Positions 13,691 through 50,949 of a DNA stretch of 64,000 nt are shown here, in pieces (within the stretch, counting starts at the first letter, position 1; each line of letters opens with the position of its first letter). The stretch is taken from the NCBI GenBank assembly GCA_947623505.1, contig CANQGT010000002.1, positions 1 to 64,000 on the forward strand, given 5' to 3'. Below the pieces are notes generated by a model. It did no database searches. It was given only the letters and a program-made list of their open reading frames with translations, and was not told the origin of the DNA. Origin of the DNA: an uncultured Clostridia bacterium. Lineage in GTDB: Bacteria > Bacillota > Clostridia > Oscillospirales > Acutalibacteraceae. The position numbers were made by a program, and so were the translations under genes.

Positions 13691-13972
13691 AAAAAACGCC
13701 CCTATATGATATAGGGGCGTAGCAAAATACTACACGGTACCACCCTACTTCAGCGGATGCCTCCGCCCTTTAGCATCATACAATGCCTTAACGCTTAACG
13801 CCGTTACGCGTCTGCTCCTATTATCGGACACGCCGAACTTTCAAAGCAGCGACTCCACGGAGAGCTATACATTATAATTCCCGTATCGGCTTTCACCTGC
13901 CGCCGACTCTCTGCAACTGAAAACTATAATCTTTTTCCGCTTCACAGTCTTTATGGGTACTGTTTTATTCAG
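13691..13972 (-). promoter_or_regulatory. T-box leader (predicted leucine tRNA sensing) of the leu operon
   Basis: Read on the - strand, the leader carries a stem I with the conserved AGAGAG and GGTGAAAGCC distal elements (about 13880-13912). It also has the T-box antiterminator motif AGGGTGGTACCGTG (about 13735-13748) and a strong terminator ACGCCCCTAT/ATAGGGGCGT followed by seven Ts (13691-13720). A CTC triplet at 13862-13864 is a candidate Leu specifier, but the specifier loop was not resolved with confidence. Uncharged tRNA-Leu would stabilise the antiterminator. This explains the gene-free stretch 13659-14016. Confidence 0.9.
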
Positions 13973-42835: not shown

Positions 42836-42977
42836 CAATAAATTAGACGTATGTAAAATTAAAGGGGTTTTATATTACTTTCATATAAATCGAAACGCCG
42901 AAATTTAATAAAAATCCTCCGCCGTAAAAACGTCTTTTGAAAACGGCGCGGAAAAAGTTTTGCATTTACGGACAAAA

Positions 42978-43004
42978 AAGACCTTTCGTTCAGCGAAAGG
43001 CCTT
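42978..43004 (-). terminator. Distal hairpin repeat of element copy 1, probable terminator of the fadD-like gene
   Basis: The 27-bp unit forms a CCTTTCG/CGAAAGG stem and is followed on the - strand by a T-tract (about six Ts). It is identical to 43282-43308. Confidence 0.75.
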
Positions 43005-43281
43005 CAGACTGTCGATAAAGCGGTCTGAACCGCGCCGAGAAAATAAATATGCTTGCGTTATCGGTATCACCTACAAAAATTCAGTCTGTATAATTTTTAA
43101 TAACTACTGCAATAAGAAAGCCGCTTGAATATCGAATTTAAGCGGCTTTTGGCGCTTTCGCCTTTCGGCAACTCTACCGTACCTATGTACGCCGACGAAT
43201 TGCCGAAAGGCAAATTCAGTTCCGTTTCTCGAAGTCTGCCGGCGTGTAGAATTATGTTTCCCTGACTTTTTCTACACGCTG

Positions 43282-43308
43282 AAGACCTTTCGTTCAGCGA
43301 AAGGCCTT
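43282..43308 (-). repeat. Proximal hairpin repeat of element copy 1
   Basis: This exact 27-bp copy of 42978-43004 lies 12 bp after the fadD-like stop codon. It lacks a T-tract because the element core starts at the base of the stem. Confidence 0.85.
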
Positions 43309-43319
43309 TTAGATAAAAA

Positions 43320-45002
43320 TTATTTAAGCATTTTGAAATCCACCTTGCCGATTTTAGTCCTCGGAAGAGCGTCAATAAAAGCGACCTCCTTCGGAACCGA
43401 CCATTTTGAGAGATTCTGCTCACCGAAACGCTTAATTTTCTCAATTAAATCCGCTTCGCTGTCACTCGCGAATTTTCTGTTCTTAACAACAAAGAGCTTC
43501 AGCGTGGTTTTTCCCTCGTCGCCTACGCCGATAACGCAGCAGTCGAATATCTCGGCCATAGCGCGGTAGGTCTCTTCGATAAACGACGGGTAAACGAGAT
43601 AGCCGCTTATCTTGTAAACCCTCTTGAGGCGCTGGCGGTAATAAATATCGCCGCGTTCATCGATAAAGCACATATCGCCCGTGTGGAGCCATACCCTGCC
43701 GTCGTCCTCGTGCTTGATAAGCACTTTCGCCGTTTCGTCGGGATCGTTCCAATAGCCCTGCATAAGGGTGGGGGCATATATACATAGCTCGCCGTCTTCG
43801 CCCTCGCATTTTTCGGTGGTGCCCGGTTTAACCGTCATAGCCTCAACATTGTAGCACGGAACGCCTATGCAGCCCTGCGGGGCCTCGCGGCGCGGATCGG
43901 TAAAGGTGCAAACGGTAACGCATTCCGTAAGTCCGTAGCCCGAAACGAAATGGACTCTCGCGCCGTTTTCTTTAAGTAATCTGTCCATCTTCTCGGTGAG
44001 CGAATAGGGAACGACGTCGCCGCCGGAGCCTATAAGCTTCATCGTGCTCATATCAACGCCCTTGAGATAACCGGCGTTGTAGACCTTTTCAAAGAAATCC
44101 GGAACGCCGAAGATATAGTTGATATGATATTTCTTTATGGATGCGGAGCACATTTTAGCGTCAAACTGCGGAAAAAGCGCCTGCGCCATTCCGACGCACA
44201 TCGAAACGTGCATGCAAAGAGCGAAGCCGAAACCGTGGAAAACGGGAAGAGCCGTGAGCATTGCGTCGTTATCCTGATCTATTTTCATATTCAGCACCTG
44301 CTCGACAACGTCCACAAGCTGATACGAAAGATTGTTTATCGCCTCAGAGGTGAGCATAACGCCCTTGGGGTTGCCCGTTGTGCCGCCCGTCATCATAACG
44401 GCGGCGGTGGCAAGCGGATCGGAAGCCGTTTCGGGGACGCCGTTTTCCTTGATATATTCCTCGCCCTCTTTGAGGAAATCCGCCCAATCTATGAGCTTTT
44501 TGACGTTTTCGGCGGGAGCCGTTTTGCCCTTTATCTTCTTCTTATAGAGCATATTCGCTATCATTCCGTAGGCGTTTTTCGGAAAATACTGCGCGGTTCT
44601 GCACTTTATAAGCGTGAGATCGGGATTTTCGGTAAACGACTTTTCGGATACGTCAAAGCAAAAAGCGTATTTCGCACCGACAAGATTTATTGTATAATCC
44701 GCCTCGGATTTAACGGAAAGCGGGTGGAGCATCGAGGCCACGGCGCCGATTTTGTTTACGGCGTAGATCGCTGTTATACACTGCGGCATATTCGGCAGGC
44801 AGATAACGACTCTGTCTCCCTTTTGAACGCCGTTCGCGACGAGGGCGGCGGCGCATTTGTCCACCATATCCGAAACAGCGTTCCAGCTGAGGGTGTTGTT
44901 GTAATAGTAAAGGCAGGGATTATCTCCCCTTTCCTTTACGGAATTTTCAAATTGGCGGTACATTGTTGTTTTAACATTGTAGATCGTTGTGTAATCAATC
45001 AT
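43320..45002 (-). CDS. AMP-binding acyl-CoA synthetase (FadD-like)
   Basis: The 560-residue adenylate-forming enzyme has the P-loop MMTGGTTGNPKGVML, the A5-A7 region VSGYGLTEC and WLHTGDMC, and the C-terminal RLKRVYKISGYLV and catalytic-lysine region PRTKIGKVDF. It activates a carboxylic acid, probably a fatty acid, as acyl-AMP and then acyl-CoA, but chain length is not predictable. It has a sigma-A promoter and stands alone. Its transcript runs into the 277-bp element directly after the stop. Confidence 0.92.
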   Translation of the reverse strand: MIDYTTIYNVKTTMYRQFENSVKERGDNPCLYYYNNTLSWNAVSDMVDKCAAALVANGVQKGDRVVICLPNMPQCITAIYAVNKIGAVASMLHPLSVKSEADYTINLVGAKYAFCFDVSEKSFTENPDLTLIKCRTAQYFPKNAYGMIANMLYKKKIKGKTAPAENVKKLIDWADFLKEGEEYIKENGVPETASDPLATAAVMMTGGTTGNPKGVMLTSEAINNLSYQLVDVVEQVLNMKIDQDNDAMLTALPVFHGFGFALCMHVSMCVGMAQALFPQFDAKMCSASIKKYHINYIFGVPDFFEKVYNAGYLKGVDMSTMKLIGSGGDVVPYSLTEKMDRLLKENGARVHFVSGYGLTECVTVCTFTDPRREAPQGCIGVPCYNVEAMTVKPGTTEKCEGEDGELCIYAPTLMQGYWNDPDETAKVLIKHEDDGRVWLHTGDMCFIDERGDIYYRQRLKRVYKISGYLVYPSFIEETYRAMAEIFDCCVIGVGDEGKTTLKLFVVKNRKFASDSEADLIEKIKRFGEQNLSKWSVPKEVAFIDALPRTKIGKVDFKMLK

Positions 45003-45041
45003 AGCAGCATCTTCTCCGTTTCTTCTGTAAACTATAAAACT

Positions 45042-45070
45042 ATTTTAAAATAAGGATAATACCGTTGCAA
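45042..45070 (-). promoter_or_regulatory. Promoter of the acyl-CoA synthetase gene
   Basis: On the - strand TTGCAA (45070-45065) and TAAAAT (45047-45042) are separated by 17 bp. Confidence 0.6.
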
Positions 45071-45133
45071 CACGGCAAAAAGATTATTTATCTTTTGTTT
45101 ATCTTTGATTTTGGATTTTGGCAATAAAGGCGA

Positions 45134-45161
45134 TTGACTTTTTTTAAGCCTGTGATATTAT
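45134..45161 (+). promoter_or_regulatory. Promoter of the integral membrane protein gene
   Basis: TTGACT (45134-45139) and TATTAT (45156-45161) are separated by 16 bp, 38 bp before the start codon. Confidence 0.55.
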
Positions 45162-45198
45162 TGTAGTTGACATTAAAAAAGGATGATAAAACTGCTTT

Positions 45199-45876
45199 AT
45201 GGCTTATAAAATCAAAAAGGATCCCGTGGGCAGGGTGCCGAAAGCGCAGCTCACGTTTTGGATAATAGTAAGGCTTTCGATGATAATTTGCGCCGCGTAT
45301 TCGTTTGTAAACGGCGATCTCGTTATGGGCTTCGAGTCCGTTTTTTGCTTTATTTTCACGCATCTCTGGGATATGTTTCAGGTTTTCGGCAACGGCTCGT
45401 TTATCGAAGAGGTGCCGCCCCTTTCGCAGACGCTGCTCAATCTGATAATTTTTATCGGCATAGTTTTCGGCTCGTATCTTGAGCTTTTTGACAGACTGCC
45501 GTGGTTCGATAATTTTATGCACATTCTTTCGGGCTTCGTGTGCGCTTCGTTCGGATATGATTTCGCCTGCATAATTCAAAGAAAGATCGGGCGCTGCGCC
45601 GCGACTCTTGCCGCGATTTTTTCGCTTATGTTTGCCCTTTCCATCGCGGTGGGCTGGGAATTTTACGAATTTCTTATGGACACTCTGCACGGCACGAATT
45701 TGCAGCTTGCGAAGCAGGGGCCTGAAACGGCTATGTTCGATCTTGCCAAATACAACGGCGAATACGGTTATATCGGGCTCGTCGATACGATGATTGATAT
45801 GATGATGAACGCGGCCGGCGGTGTTGCGGGAATGATATTTATGATAATTTTACGCAACAGAAAAAAGAAAAAATAA
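45199..45876 (+). CDS. Integral membrane protein, YjdF/DUF2238-like
   Basis: The 225-residue protein has about six membrane helices. The pattern LPWFDNFMHILSGFVCASFGYD, WEFYEFLMDTLHG and GLVDTMIDMMMNAAGG (acidic residues and a His in membrane helices) resembles the YjdF/DUF2238 group of small membrane proteins, whose function is unknown. AAAGGATG serves as ribosome binding site. It is separate from the divergent acyl-CoA synthetase gene and is followed by DUF1846 with its own promoter. Confidence 0.7.
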   Translation: MAYKIKKDPVGRVPKAQLTFWIIVRLSMIICAAYSFVNGDLVMGFESVFCFIFTHLWDMFQVFGNGSFIEEVPPLSQTLLNLIIFIGIVFGSYLELFDRLPWFDNFMHILSGFVCASFGYDFACIIQRKIGRCAATLAAIFSLMFALSIAVGWEFYEFLMDTLHGTNLQLAKQGPETAMFDLAKYNGEYGYIGLVDTMIDMMMNAAGGVAGMIFMIILRNRKKKK

Positions 45877-45887
45877 ATCAAAAACTA

Positions 45888-45916
45888 TTGATAAGCTATC
45901 CGTTTTTCTGTATAAT
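45888..45916 (+). promoter_or_regulatory. Sigma-A promoter of the DUF1846-pyrG transcript
   Basis: TTGATA (45888-45893) and a perfect TATAAT (45911-45916) are spaced by 17 bp. Confidence 0.8.
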
Positions 45917-45922
45917 ATATAA

Positions 45923-45938
45923 GTACAGACGGCTGTAC
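45923..45938. promoter_or_regulatory. Inverted repeat at the predicted transcription start of DUF1846
   Basis: GTACAG-ACGG-CTGTAC is a perfect repeat located seven bases after the -10 hexamer, a typical repressor position. It could also form a short 5' RNA hairpin. Confidence 0.5.
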
Positions 45939-45979
45939 CTCGGTGCGGCCGTTATATTTTTATATGGGTGCAGGAGAAA

Positions 45980-47443
45980 ATGTTTAAAATCGGTTTCGAC
46001 AATGATAAATATCTGAAATTGCAGTCCGAAAGAATAAAGGAGCGCATATCGGAATTCGGCGGCAAGCTGTATCTTGAATTCGGCGGCAAGCTGTTTGACG
46101 ATTATCACGCCTCGCGCGTTTTGCCGGGCTTTCAGCCGGACAGTAAGCTGCAAATGCTGCTTCAGTTAAAGGAGCACGCCGAAATAGTTATTGTAATAAG
46201 CGCACAGGATATAGAAAAGAACAAGCGCAGGGGAGATCTCGGTATAACATACGATTCAGACGTTATCCGGCTTATAGACGCGTTTTCGGGAATAGGGCTT
46301 TATGTCAGCAGCGTAGTGCTTACGAAATATGAGCCGAATCCCAAAGCGCTCGCGTTTGAAAACAGGCTGAAAAAACTCGGCGTTTCCGTTTATCACCACT
46401 ATGTTATAGACGGCTATCCCTCAAACATATCCCATATCGTGAGCGACGACGGATACGGAACGAACGATTACATAAAAACGAGCCGCTCGCTTGTTGTTGT
46501 AACCGCCCCCGGCCCCGGAAGCGGAAAAATGGCCACCTGCCTTTCACAGCTTTATCACGAAAACAAAAGGGGCATAAAGGCGGGGTACGCGAAATTCGAG
46601 ACTTTTCCCATTTGGAATCTGCCGTTAAATCACCCGGTAAACGCGGCGTATGAGGCCGCCACCGCGGATCTTAACGATATAAATATGATTGATCCGTGGC
46701 ATCTTGCGGCTTACGGAAAAACGACGGTGAATTACAACAGAGACGTTGAGATATTCCCCGTTTTAAAGGCCGTTTTCGATGAGATTTACGGGGCGAGCCC
46801 CTATAAATCGCCGACGGATATGGGCGTTAATATGGCGGGCAGCTGCATAATAGACGACGAAGCCGTTCGCGAAGCGGCAAAGCAGGAAATCATCAGAAGA
46901 TATTTTACCGCTCTGCGCGCGGAAGCGGCAGGCGAAAGCAAAAGCTCAGAAATATACAGGCTGGAGCTGCTTATGAAGCAGGCGGAAATAAGCGTAAATT
47001 CCCGAATCTGCGCCGCCGCGGCAAGGAAAAAGGCGGAGGAAACGGGCGAGCCGGCCGCGGCGATAGAGCTTAACGACGGCACGGTGGTCACCGGCAGAAC
47101 GTCAAAGCTGATGGGGTGCGCGTCCGCGATGCTTTTGAACGCGCTGAAGCGCCTTGCCGGCATAGACGACGATGTGCTGCTTATCGTGCCGGAGGTAATA
47201 ATCCCCGTTCAGGAACTCAAGGTAAACCACCTCGGCAATCACAATCCGCGCCTGCATACGGACGAGGTGCTGCTTGCGCTTTCAATTTCTGCAGTAACGG
47301 ATAAAAACGCCGCTCTCGCGATGGAACAGCTCTGCAATCTTAAAAACTGCGAAATGCATTCATCGGTAATGCTCGCGCAGGTTGACGAAAATCTGCTAAG
47401 AAAGCTGGGAATACGCCTTACCTGCGATCCGAAAAGAAAATAA
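45980..47443 (+). CDS. DUF1846 family protein
   Basis: The 487-residue protein belongs to the DUF1846 family, common in Firmicutes, with the family opening KIGFDNDKYLKLQSERI and the central VVVTAPGPGSGKMATCLSQL. The glycine-rich GPGSGK resembles a phosphate-binding loop, which suggests nucleotide binding, but its enzymatic role is not established. ATG at 45980 follows AGGAG at short spacing, and an upstream GTG has no such site. pyrG follows after 21 bp, so the two are probably co-transcribed. Confidence 0.93.
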   Translation: MFKIGFDNDKYLKLQSERIKERISEFGGKLYLEFGGKLFDDYHASRVLPGFQPDSKLQMLLQLKEHAEIVIVISAQDIEKNKRRGDLGITYDSDVIRLIDAFSGIGLYVSSVVLTKYEPNPKALAFENRLKKLGVSVYHHYVIDGYPSNISHIVSDDGYGTNDYIKTSRSLVVVTAPGPGSGKMATCLSQLYHENKRGIKAGYAKFETFPIWNLPLNHPVNAAYEAATADLNDINMIDPWHLAAYGKTTVNYNRDVEIFPVLKAVFDEIYGASPYKSPTDMGVNMAGSCIIDDEAVREAAKQEIIRRYFTALRAEAAGESKSSEIYRLELLMKQAEISVNSRICAAAARKKAEETGEPAAAIELNDGTVVTGRTSKLMGCASAMLLNALKRLAGIDDDVLLIVPEVIIPVQELKVNHLGNHNPRLHTDEVLLALSISAVTDKNAALAMEQLCNLKNCEMHSSVMLAQVDENLLRKLGIRLTCDPKRK

Positions 47444-47464
47444 GGCGAAAAAAGGAGGACAAAT

Positions 47465-49084
47465 ATGGAAAAGAAAACGAAATATGTTTTTGTAACGGGC
47501 GGAGTTGTAAGCGGGCTCGGAAAAGGAATTACAGCCGCCTCCCTCGGCAGACTTTTAAAATCCCGCGGGCTTAAGGTGACGGCTCAGAAGCTTGATCCGT
47601 ATCTGAACGTTGACCCGGGAACGATGAATCCCGTTCAGCACGGCGAGGTTTTCGTTACGGACGACGGGGCGGAAACCGATCTCGATCTCGGCCATTATGA
47701 AAGATTTATAGACGAAAGCCTTTCCCAAAACTCAAATCTCACTTCCGGCAGGGTTTACTGGAAGGTGATAACGGACGAGCGCAAGGGCGTTTACGGCGGC
47801 CAGACGATACAGATAATCCCGCACGTTACAAATGAAATAAAGCGCTTTATCGCGAAGAACGCGGAAAGCGAACCGGATGTGTGCCTTGTTGAAATCGGCG
47901 GCACGATAGGCGATATAGAGAGCCAGCCGTTTCTTGAGGCGATACGCCAGTTTTCGGTTGAATACGGCAGGGAAAACTGCCTTTTTATTCACGTTACTCT
48001 CGTGCCGTATCTCGCCGCGTCGGACGAGCTTAAATCAAAGCCCACGCAGCACAGCGTTAAGGAAATGCTTTCTCTCGGCATTCAGCCGGATATAATCGTT
48101 TGCAGAACGGAGCACGCGCTTTCGGAGGAAATCAGAAGAAAAATAGCGCTTTTCTGCAACGTGGGAAAGGAATGCGTTATTGAAAACAACAACTGCGACG
48201 TGCTTTACGCCGTGCCGATGATGCTTAAGGAGGAGGGGCTTGACAAGGTAGTTATCGGAAAGCTCGGCCTCAAATGCGGCGAGCCCGAACTCGGCGACTG
48301 GCAGGAAATGCTTGAAGCTTTGAGAAATCCCGTGCAAACGGTCAAAATAGGTATGGTAGGCAAATATGTCGAGCTGCACGACAGCTACATATCGGTAAAC
48401 GAAGCGCTGAAGCACGGCGGCATACCCACGCGGTCGGCGGTCGATATAAACTGGATAGATTCCGAAAGCCTTGAGGACGAAAACGCGGATCTTGACGCGG
48501 TGCTCGGCGATATGGACGGAATACTCGTTCCAGGCGGCTTCGGCAGCAGAGGAATCGAGGGAAAAATAAAGGCCGCAAATTACGCGCGCACCCATAATAT
48601 ACCGTATCTCGGCATCTGCCTCGGGATGCAGACCGCGATAATCGAGATAGCGAGGAACGTTCTCGGCTTCAAGGGAGCAAACTCGGCGGAAATAGATCCC
48701 GAAACGCCTTATCCCGTTATTGATATTCTTCCGGAGCAGAAAAACGTTGAGGAAATGGGCGGAACGATGCGCCTCGGGCAATACCCCTGCGTGCTCAACC
48801 CAAAGTCCAAAGCGTTTGAGCTTTACGGAGCGTCTATGATATATGAGCGCCACCGCCACCGCTATGAGGTAAACAACGAATACAGAGCCGATCTGCTGAA
48901 AAGCGGGCTGATCTTCGCCGGAACCTCTCCCGACAATCACATAGTTGAAATGATAGAGCTGCCGTCGCACCCGTGGTTTGTGGCCGGCCAGTTCCACCCC
49001 GAATTTAAAAGCCGTCCGAACAGACCGCACCCGCTGTTTCGCGGATTTGTTACCGCGGCGGCCGAGCTCAGAAAAAGTAAATAA
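47465..49084 (+). CDS. pyrG: CTP synthase
   Basis: The 539-residue enzyme aminates UTP to CTP with glutamine and ATP. The amidoligase domain starts with [20 protein letters not shown], and the glutaminase domain has the nucleophile Cys in YLGICLGMQ and the His/Glu pair in [19 protein letters not shown] precedes the ATG. It is co-oriented with DUF1846. The common pyrG attenuator sequence (a run of Gs at the transcript start) was not seen because no separate promoter lies in the 21-bp gap. The element copy 2 begins 12 bp after the stop. Confidence 0.97.
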
Positions 49085-49095
49085 AACAAAAATAA

Positions 49096-49122
49096 AGACG
49101 GGCGGTTCAAACCGTCCGTCTG
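49096..49122 (+). repeat. Proximal hairpin repeat of element copy 2
   Basis: An exact 27-bp copy of 49401-49427, 11 bp after the pyrG stop. The T-tract expected of a terminator is absent because the element core begins immediately. Confidence 0.85.
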
Positions 49123-49400
49123 CAGCGTGTAGAAAAAATCAAAGAAATAGATTTCTACACGCAGGCAGACTTCGAGAAACGGAACTGAATTCGCCTTTCG
49201 GCAATTCGTCGGCGTACATAGGTACGGTAGAGTTGCCGAAAGGTGAAAGCGCCGAAAGCCGCTTGAATTCGATATTCAAGCGGCTTTCTCAATGCAGTTA
49301 TTATTAAAATCTATAATAGACTAAATTTTATCGGCGATACAAACAACGCAAGCATATTTATTTTTATCGGCGCGGTTCAGACCGCTTTATCGACAGTCTG

Positions 49401-49427
49401 AGACGGGCGGTTCAAACCGTCCGTCTG
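49401..49427 (+). terminator. Distal hairpin repeat of element copy 2, probable pyrG terminator
   Basis: A stable stem with one G-U pair is followed by TTTTATTT. It would end the pyrG transcript beyond the element. Confidence 0.75.
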
Positions 49428-49467
49428 TTTTATTTATATACATTTTATGAAATTGCTTGGTACCAGG

Positions 49468-50949
49468 CTAAGCTTCGGAGGATTGTGAAATTTCCTCCGC
49501 ATCATTGTAATTTACGGCGTCGTCAAACAGCTTTTCAACCTCTTTTGAGGGCTTTTTCGTGCAGAGGGTAACGACTACCGCCGCGAGCAAACCGGCCGCG
49601 AAGCCCGGGATAAGCTCATAAATGCCCGTTGAAGAAAGAAACGCTATCCAAAGAATATCGACCGCGGCGCCTGTAAGTATTCCGGCTATCGCGCCCTTGA
49701 AATTGAAGCGCTTCCAGAAAAGGCTGAGCAGAATGCTCGGGCCGATCGACGCGCCGAAGAGCCCCCAAGCGTTTGTAACAAGATCCATTATTCCGCCCGT
49801 GTTGGGATTTGAGGCAATGACGAGCGCAACAACCGAAACGGCAAGCACAACGAATCTGCCCGCCCAAAGCATTTCCTTGTCCCCCGCCTTGTTTTTGCGG
49901 AAAACCGGCTTATACACGTCGCTCGCAAAGGAAGACGCGGCGGAGAGGAGCTGACTGTCGGCCGTGCTCATAGACGCCGCGAGCACCGCGGAGAGCAGAA
50001 TGCCGGAGATAATTCCCGGGAAAATTTTTCTTACCATACTGATGAAAACGAGCTCGCCGTTCGCCGTTTCCTCGCTAAAGCCGAGGAACATACGGCCGAT
50101 AATGCCTATCGCGGCGGCAAAGATAACTATGAACACCGTCCAAGTTATGCCGATGCCGGCGGATTTTTTAAGCTCCTTTTGCGAACGTATGGACATAAAG
50201 CGGATTATGATATGCGGCATTCCGAAATATCCGAGACCCCACGCAAGGCCGGAGACAACCTCTTTCCAATCCGCGAAGGCGTTCCAGTAATCCGCCGGAA
50301 CGGGCGCGGAGGAAGCGGAGTTCAGCATTCCCACGGCGAAAAGCGGGGCGATGAGCATACCGCCGAAAATCAGCATACCCTGGAAAAAGTCGGTCCAACA
50401 TACGGCGGAAAAGCCCCCGAGAAACGTGTAGCCCACGATGATGATCGCCGCGATATACATAGCGACGCGCGCGTCCATACCGATAACGGTGTTGAAAAGA
50501 GTGCCGCAGGCTTTAAGGCTTGAAGCGGCGTAAATCGTGTAAGCGACAAGGAAAACAACGGCGCATATTATTTGCAGCGCGTGCGATTTTGAAAGAAAAC
50601 GGTTTGTAAGATACTGGGGAATCGTGATAGAATCGTTTGCCACTATCGAAAACTTACGCAGACGCGGAGCCTCTACGAGCCAGCTTACGGTGTAGCCTAT
50701 CGCAAGGCCGACGGAAATCCAAACCTGGCCGACGCCGAGCGCGTAAATCGAGGTGGGCAAACCCATAAGCACCCACGCGCTCATATCCGAAGCGCCGGCG
50801 GACAGGGCGGCAACCCACGGCCCCATTTTTCTTCCGCCGAGGAAGTACGTTTTTTCACCGCCGTTTTTGCTTTTAATGAAGAAATACACGCCTATTCCGA
50901 GCATAAACGCCAAATAGACTATGAAAACCGCAACTTCTGAAATATCCAT
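49468..50949 (-). CDS. putP: Sodium/proline symporter
   Basis: The 493-residue transporter has the sodium:solute symporter fold with about 13 helices and PutP-type motifs: SAGASDMSAWVLMGLP, PQYLTNRF and the AASMSTADSQLLSAASSFASD helix that holds the Na+ site. It imports proline with sodium. The ATG at 50949 with GGGAGG was chosen over an in-frame TTG. It is divergent from a LysR gene that may control it. Confidence 0.92.
   Translation of the reverse strand: MDISEVAVFIVYLAFMLGIGVYFFIKSKNGGEKTYFLGGRKMGPWVAALSAGASDMSAWVLMGLPTSIYALGVGQVWISVGLAIGYTVSWLVEAPRLRKFSIVANDSITIPQYLTNRFLSKSHALQIICAVVFLVAYTIYAASSLKACGTLFNTVIGMDARVAMYIAAIIIVGYTFLGGFSAVCWTDFFQGMLIFGGMLIAPLFAVGMLNSASSAPVPADYWNAFADWKEVVSGLAWGLGYFGMPHIIIRFMSIRSQKELKKSAGIGITWTVFIVIFAAAIGIIGRMFLGFSEETANGELVFISMVRKIFPGIISGILLSAVLAASMSTADSQLLSAASSFASDVYKPVFRKNKAGDKEMLWAGRFVVLAVSVVALVIASNPNTGGIMDLVTNAWGLFGASIGPSILLSLFWKRFNFKGAIAGILTGAAVDILWIAFLSSTGIYELIPGFAAGLLAAVVVTLCTKKPSKEVEKLFDDAVNYNDAEEISQSSEA

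Follow-up and report, generated by a model that had tools for sequence, protein, structure and literature searches.

A multi-copy folded element of Clostridia flanked by duplicated terminator hairpins, and its probable IS1182-family partners

The insertion sequences (IS) IS1272 and TnSha1, members of the IS1182 family from staphylococci, insert at hairpins of unrelated sequence, several of which are confirmed terminators, as described in PMC4923244 and PMC5678879. According to PMC5678879, IS1272 deletes its target hairpin and takes its place without any target duplication, and its authors conclude that the hairpin is replaced; they draw duplication of the whole hairpin as a possible pathway b and do not present it as something observed. 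Here we analyse a window of 64,000 nucleotides from an uncultured Clostridia bacterium (family Acutalibacteraceae, order Oscillospirales; GenBank assembly GCA_947623505.1, contig CANQGT010000002.1, positions 1 to 64,000), which holds two copies, A and B, of an apparently non-coding element of about 277 bp, each lying between two copies of a terminator hairpin. Very probably, this element is a non-autonomous transposon, resembling a miniature inverted-repeat transposable element (MITE), that is mobilised in trans by DDE transposases of the IS1182 family. Its presumed partner IS has in common with IS1272 and TnSha1 an IS1182-family transposase and hairpin targets; whereas IS1272 leaves no duplication, the element and the IS described here duplicate the whole hairpin.

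Tables of the IS1182 family allow palindromic targets and target duplications of up to about 60 bp, and hairpin duplication by autonomous members may already be on record. Palindromic targets are also ascribed to the family in PMC4923244, which cites a 2015 review, and PMC12056078 presents IS1182-related transposases as acting with or without target duplication and as possibly recognising either target sequence or DNA structure. In the literature that we searched, whose coverage excludes most subscription papers, neither an IS1182-type MITE nor an observed case of whole-hairpin duplication was found described.

Other mobile sequences offer partial parallels. Bacterial MITEs are likewise short, non-coding and multi-copy, with terminal inverted repeats common with an IS and a target duplication, but in the element described here the duplicated target is a hairpin of 20-36 bp, and inside it lies a fold conserved by compensatory changes, which includes an internal copy of the end sequence and occurs in many genera of one order. 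Repetitive extragenic palindromic sequences and bacterial interspersed mosaic elements, served by RAYT transposases of the HUH type, are also structured, intergenic and mobilised in trans. Unlike them, our element has long direct repeats and the inverted repeats of a DDE-type IS; to our knowledge RAYT elements make no target duplication. Group IIC introns also prefer terminator hairpins as targets, and we know of no target duplication made by them.

Duplicated hairpins and empty sites

On re-reading the window, we recovered two similar cores, each between two direct repeats that form hairpins and are identical over 27/27 positions, within copy A as well as within copy B (Table 1). In both copies only the gene-distal repeat carries a T-tract and the gene-side repeat has none, as expected if a hairpin had been duplicated without its T-tract. 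All these features had been pointed out in an earlier reading made from the letters of the window (hereafter the sequence-only reading), which took the simplest case to be a mobile non-coding element landing at terminator hairpins and duplicating their stem.

A DNA search with the element in the genome of the window (1,824,825 bases in 24 contigs) yielded 13 two-ended copies, 12 of 276-278 bp and one of 262 bp, besides several fragments. In 12 of the 13 copies a direct repeat of 20-34 bp with 0-1 mismatch, again a terminator hairpin, lies exactly at the element boundary, and these duplicated flanks are specific to each copy. The exception is L007 (contig C1, near 248361-248637), in which the left hairpin is inverted and the flanking hairpins are unequal. 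The repeat length of 27 bp given by the sequence-only reading holds for both window copies and for L002; as a fixed length it does not stand, as the length of clean repeats varies from 20 to 34 bp in this genome and from 20 to 36 bp across the genus. We also observed a solo left-end hairpin of the element next to a terminator hairpin on contig C19 (L018, 7120-7159).

Beyond this genome, a match at E ≤ 0.001 was found in 30 of 98 genomes (that of the window included), 29 of them among the 60 genomes of the genus, some genus matches being fragments only. A script examined 74 loci; 66 had a pair of ends and 61 passed the end criteria. The longest complete open reading frame (ORF) lying wholly within one of these 61 cores is of 77 aa (median 46); short ORFs overlap both window copies, and coding potential is judged here by ORF length alone.

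Hairpins were defined strictly, with a stem of at least 8 bp and a loop of at most 10. Such a hairpin abuts the left boundary in 51/61 copies and the right boundary in 53/61, compared with 41 of 1,635 random positions taken at least 120 bases away. This definition replaced a first, lax one that had a background of 48%; under the lax one, at least 75% agreement between the hairpins on the two sides of a copy is seen in 46 of 55 copies, versus 0.7% of 2,970 pairings between copies. Clean repeats of 20-36 bp were found in 40 of the 61 copies (12 of these from the window's genome), 25 of the 40 being free of mismatches, and in 32/40 the centre of the repeat falls precisely on the dyad of the hairpin, itself located separately in the modelled empty site. 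L005 and L031 appear to go back to a single insertion event, so not every copy counts as independent. We saw no bias in insertion orientation relative to the terminators (T above A in 26 and A above T in 24 of the 61), as expected for a symmetric target. By eye, the two copies of the duplicated hairpin at L239 and at L223 apparently differ by an inverted loop, as if loops could flip.

Empty sites with a single hairpin are present in G019, a genome of the same genus, at both window loci. At the locus of copy B, the match to the window stops at 49120 and resumes at 49469; the stretch between holds one hairpin and a short T-run, and no core. The locus of copy A likewise has a single hairpin and lacks the core. 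The hairpins at these loci have diverged between G019 and the window genome. The target duplication speaks for insertion over loss at both loci, if not strictly. Downstream of the gene that matches window positions 47465-49084, another genome (G029) carries a related element (L160, with end CAGGCTGTCGATAAAG) and a further one (G055) an element remnant (L171), which suggests repeated hits at one terminator site. By both of the tests that the sequence-only reading had set itself, copy-specific duplicated flanks and empty single-hairpin sites bear out its mobile element, to which our analysis adds probable IS1182-family partners of like behaviour, a variable repeat length, dyad-centred repeats and an order-wide fold.

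Insertion sequences with the same ends

A search with the right end of the element, allowing two mismatches, matched contig ends of the window's own genome. Reading both ends of all 24 contigs revealed two multi-copy IS whose interiors had broken the assembly. The IS-end pattern has 16 matches in this genome; two of them (C5, C8) lie away from contig ends and were left out of the pairing, and the 14 at contig ends pair into seven insertions, flanked by hairpin repeats of 35, 39, 31, 32, 22, 27 and 23 bp with at most one mismatch. In a second genome (G007), where 14 of 15 IS-end matches were fetched, 12 of the 14 ends pair into six hairpin duplications of 19-30 bp. The terminal inverted repeats are common to the element and the IS (TTTATCGACAGTCTG in the former, TTTTTCGACAGTCTG and TTTTTCTACAGTCTG in the latter). 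A 72-base IS end, searched in 60 genomes, was present in the window's genome only, and the IS of this genome are known by their ends only, plus a 24-residue match to the IS1182 C-terminus on one contig end.

An intact IS copy was found within the genus in G028 (L189), on a contig titled as uncultured Eubacterium sp. from red deer. This copy is 1,599 bp long, has inverted repeats CAGACTGTCGAAAAAG and CAGACTGTAGAAAAAC, and lies between identical hairpin repeats of 26 bp. Its frame of 533 aa matches the Pfam families DDE_Tnp_1_6 and DUF772, and scores 410.8 bits against the NCBIfam IS1182 model NF033551, the cut-off of which is 270. Scanning named genomes with this protein gave 25 loci (under titles such as Oscillospiraceae, Clostridia and Eubacterium), 21 of which were examined by script, with L198, L202, L207 and L208 left out. 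A hairpin repeat of 22-36 bp flanks 6 of the 21, the G028 copy included; among them are loci in the complete genome of Oscillibacter valericigenes (L200) and in Flavonifractor sp. An10 (L191). By eye, L190 has a hairpin repeat too. An early guess, that the 27-bp repeats were duplications of the IS1202 type, was dropped since repeat lengths vary and an IS1182 gene was found.

Two further multi-copy elements break the assembly of the window's genome at other contig ends (L115/L107 and L113/L119). Their ends carry CCACCCGTT..ACGGGTGG hairpins, and they are perhaps IS605-like. The starts of contigs C11 and C13 (L096, L098) hold, by eye, a repeated unit of the GGGGAGCTGTCTGCCGTCAGGCAGACTGAGGGGTTG type.

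Conserved fold of the core

The region of copy B, including its repeats, has a predicted RNA fold with z = -14.2 relative to shuffles. For 40 of the 61 genus copies we derived a structure of 58 pairs; pairing holds in 96.6% of its cells, and 28 pairs have changed on both sides. All five measures of fold conservation lie above all 500 shuffles and every slid control of the genus alignment, in counts that depend in part on relatedness among the sequences and on the structure having been taken from this very alignment. Judged from these alignments, the core is a multi-helix single-strand fold kept by compensatory changes.

To follow the element beyond the genus, we used a covariance model built on its left 171 positions. 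With this model the element was found in 32 of 245 sampled genomes of the order and in 17 of 126 genera, both numbers being lower bounds, as scoring covered 11 candidates in each genome. A sample of 299 genomes from the phylum, which includes a few of the same order, gave it in the window's genome only. Hairpin repeats of 23-36 bp with 0-3 mismatches flank 12 of 24 order-wide loci (24 examined of 29 from other genomes), so the target rule holds outside the genus.

Minimum-energy folds of order-wide elements with two ends contain three features, namely the left hairpin, the GTAC hairpin and the closing helix that joins the internal end copy to the right end, each in 16/16 cases and in 40/40 genus copies. 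The long-range helix appears in 8/16 order-wide and 33/40 genus folds, and its two sides are complementary over at least 7 bases in 14/16 elements versus 22% of cross-family pairs. The internal end copy complements the right end of its own element little better than it does the right ends of others (mean 7.2 bases, versus 6.3 across families), and for that reason conserved inverted-repeat copies alone could explain helix 2.

Order-wide, the plus strand is more stable than the minus strand in 15/16 elements, by a mean of -12.7 kcal/mol against -7.5 in dinucleotide shuffles, and 13/16 lie below their own shuffle mean; in the genus the same comparison gives -3.4 against -2.1 (10/14). G-U cells outnumber A-C cells by 79 to 23, with 153 and 102 expected under independence, a count that leans to the plus strand and is not independent of relatedness. 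The case for the plus strand acting as RNA is weak, the strand signal being largely explained by base composition.

A scan of the whole window with Rfam at gathering scores gave no match over the element; the sole match is a T-box leader elsewhere (13710-13954, minus strand; 109.8 bits against a gathering score of 93). At E ≤ 1, nine further loci gave matches over the element that all fall below the gathering score, and a single tRNA next to it. Intron families were not among the matches to the element in these scans.

The terminator-like hairpin with its A-rich and T-rich flanks would let the element replace the terminator that it splits, in either direction; this role leaves helices 1-5 unexplained. 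Most likely, the fold serves the element itself and not the host, either by supplying termination and a benign folded transcript or by presenting paired ends.

Table 1. Coordinates of the two window copies, their flanking repeats and the parts of copy B
Feature	Position	Strand	Remarks
Copy A, T-tract of left repeat	42974-42977	-	
Copy A, left hairpin repeat, 27 bp	42978-43004		distal to gene 43320-45002 (-)
Copy A, core, non-autonomous element (probable), 277 bp	43005-43281	-	90% identity with copy B
Copy A, right hairpin repeat, 27 bp	43282-43308		adjoins gene 43320-45002 (-)
Gene	47465-49084	+	putative CTP synthase, judged by eye
Copy B, left hairpin repeat, 27 bp	49096-49122		adjoins gene 47465-49084 (+)
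Copy B, core, non-autonomous element (probable), 278 bp	49123-49400	+	
Copy B, left terminal inverted repeat folded with inverted self-copy (helix 1)	49123-49164	+	
Copy B, internal copy resembling the inverted repeat, CAGACTTCGAGAAA (helix 2)	49166-49179	+	pairs with right terminal inverted repeat
Copy B, long hairpin with conserved GTAC...GTAC tip (helices 3, 4)	49191-49247	+	helix 3 with compensatory changes
Copy B, terminator-like hairpin with A-/T-rich flanks (helices 6, 7)	49254-49288	+	stem kept, sequence variable
Copy B, right terminal inverted repeat, TTTATCGACAGTCTG	49386-49400	+	
Copy B, right hairpin repeat, 27 bp	49401-49427		followed by T-tract 49428-49431

Competing explanations and a proposed mechanism

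Multiple copies at unrelated sites, empty sites, duplication of whole hairpins, dyad symmetry, and ends and a target rule common with IS copies are the features, read directly from the sequences, that argue for a MITE-like transposon mobilised by IS1182-family transposases. Several observations weigh against it. The script found no clean repeat in 21/61 copies; by eye, several of these have the same stem with the loop changed or inverted, and others (for example L036, L254 and L258) have no matching pair. The length of clean repeats tracks the longest possible stem loosely, many stems being lengthened by A and T pairs (r = 0.41; the two agree at each end to within 2 bp in 23/40). At five IS1182-type loci (L184, L186, L188, L194 and L197, by eye) there is a hairpin on each side and the two are unrelated in sequence, which may reflect recombination between copies or assembly error.

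The remaining adverse observations concern the IS genes. A search of the window's genome assembly for IS1182 genes gave no match. This lack is at least partly an assembly effect, with 14 contig ends lying inside IS copies. Among element carriers assembled in fewer contigs, G047 and G054 have IS1182 fragments only and G013 and G019 have none. In the genus an IS1182 match is found in 7/60 genomes, and above the cut-off in 3/60, while 29/60 have the element. Across the order, element and IS1182 genes do not co-occur: any match is found in 9/32 element-positive versus 61/213 element-negative genomes, and a match above the cut-off in 2/32 versus 16/213, a comparison that rests on two 245-genome samples taken as the same genomes since their identifiers agree. 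Loss of IS copies in assembly accounts for part of this pattern.

Lack of co-occurrence and of an assembled IS1182 gene in the window's genome would both fit mobilisation of the same element by an enzyme outside the IS1182 family with like terminal repeats and a like hairpin rule, such as a Cas1-like integrase, which likewise copies an entire palindromic repeat when a CRISPR repeat is duplicated. We consider this improbable: the element has its inverted-repeat sequence and its target rule in common with IS copies that do carry IS1182 genes, and the contig ends inside IS copies account for part of the missing genes. A structured RNA gene or regulator of the host, invariably placed between paired terminators, would account for a core fold compensatorily conserved across the order; set against this, the many unrelated sites, the target duplications, the empty sites and the lack of orientation preference make it highly improbable. 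Given the order-wide fold, structured RNA may belong to the explanation and not compete with it. There is a similarly slight chance that the hairpin was replaced and that the second one came from another source; IS1272, also an IS1182-family member, does replace target hairpins without duplication (PMC5678879 and PMC4923244), but near-identical copies of one site-specific hairpin lie on both sides here, the empty site has one, and an IS1272-type loss of the target hairpin was not encountered among copies with clean repeats. Least probable of all is rearrangement through recombination between hairpins or tandem duplication, with no transposition, which would suit the IS copies with unrelated hairpins and the inverted, unequal flanks of L007, but is opposed by site-private repeats exact at the boundary in 12/13 copies and by empty sites in another genome of the genus; it and the host RNA gene, the alternatives put forward by the sequence-only reading, both fail to explain the many unrelated sites and the empty sites.

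DDE transposases join the 3′ ends of their element to the target, a scheme on which PMC5678879 also builds. For a transposon mobilised by the IS1182 family, the transposase would act in trans on the element and would recognise the target hairpin as an extruded cruciform. Attack would take place at the 5′ foot of the hairpin, and gap repair would then copy the whole hairpin, leaving a hairpin on both sides and the T-tract with one of them. We infer cruciform recognition, attack at the 5′ foot, mobilisation in trans and the exact cut rule; the data themselves match the prediction of pathway b as drawn in PMC5678879.

The fold may itself take part in transposition, the DDE transposase joining a folded single-stranded donor to a folded target, for instance at a replication fork. 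In such a donor the left end would pair with its inverted self-copy and the right end with the internal end copy, so that both ends would be double-stranded within one strand. We hold this to be unlikely, if worth entertaining; were it true, the core would be more than a shrunken IS, namely a new structured mobile nucleic acid spread across the order.

Hairpin targeting by IS1182 elements is known (PMC4923244 and PMC5678879), and the most surprising part of our results is the order-wide fold. The element supplies the duplication outcome that the authors of the IS1272 study drew as a possible alternative to replacement (PMC5678879). With dozens of dyad-centred insertions in which the hairpin is kept in duplicate, it also offers natural data on how a DDE transposase chooses its targets by shape and independently of sequence. 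Its compensatorily conserved fold, carried in many genera of one order and unmatched in the Rfam scans made, makes it possible to test directly what a conserved structure does inside a non-autonomous transposon.

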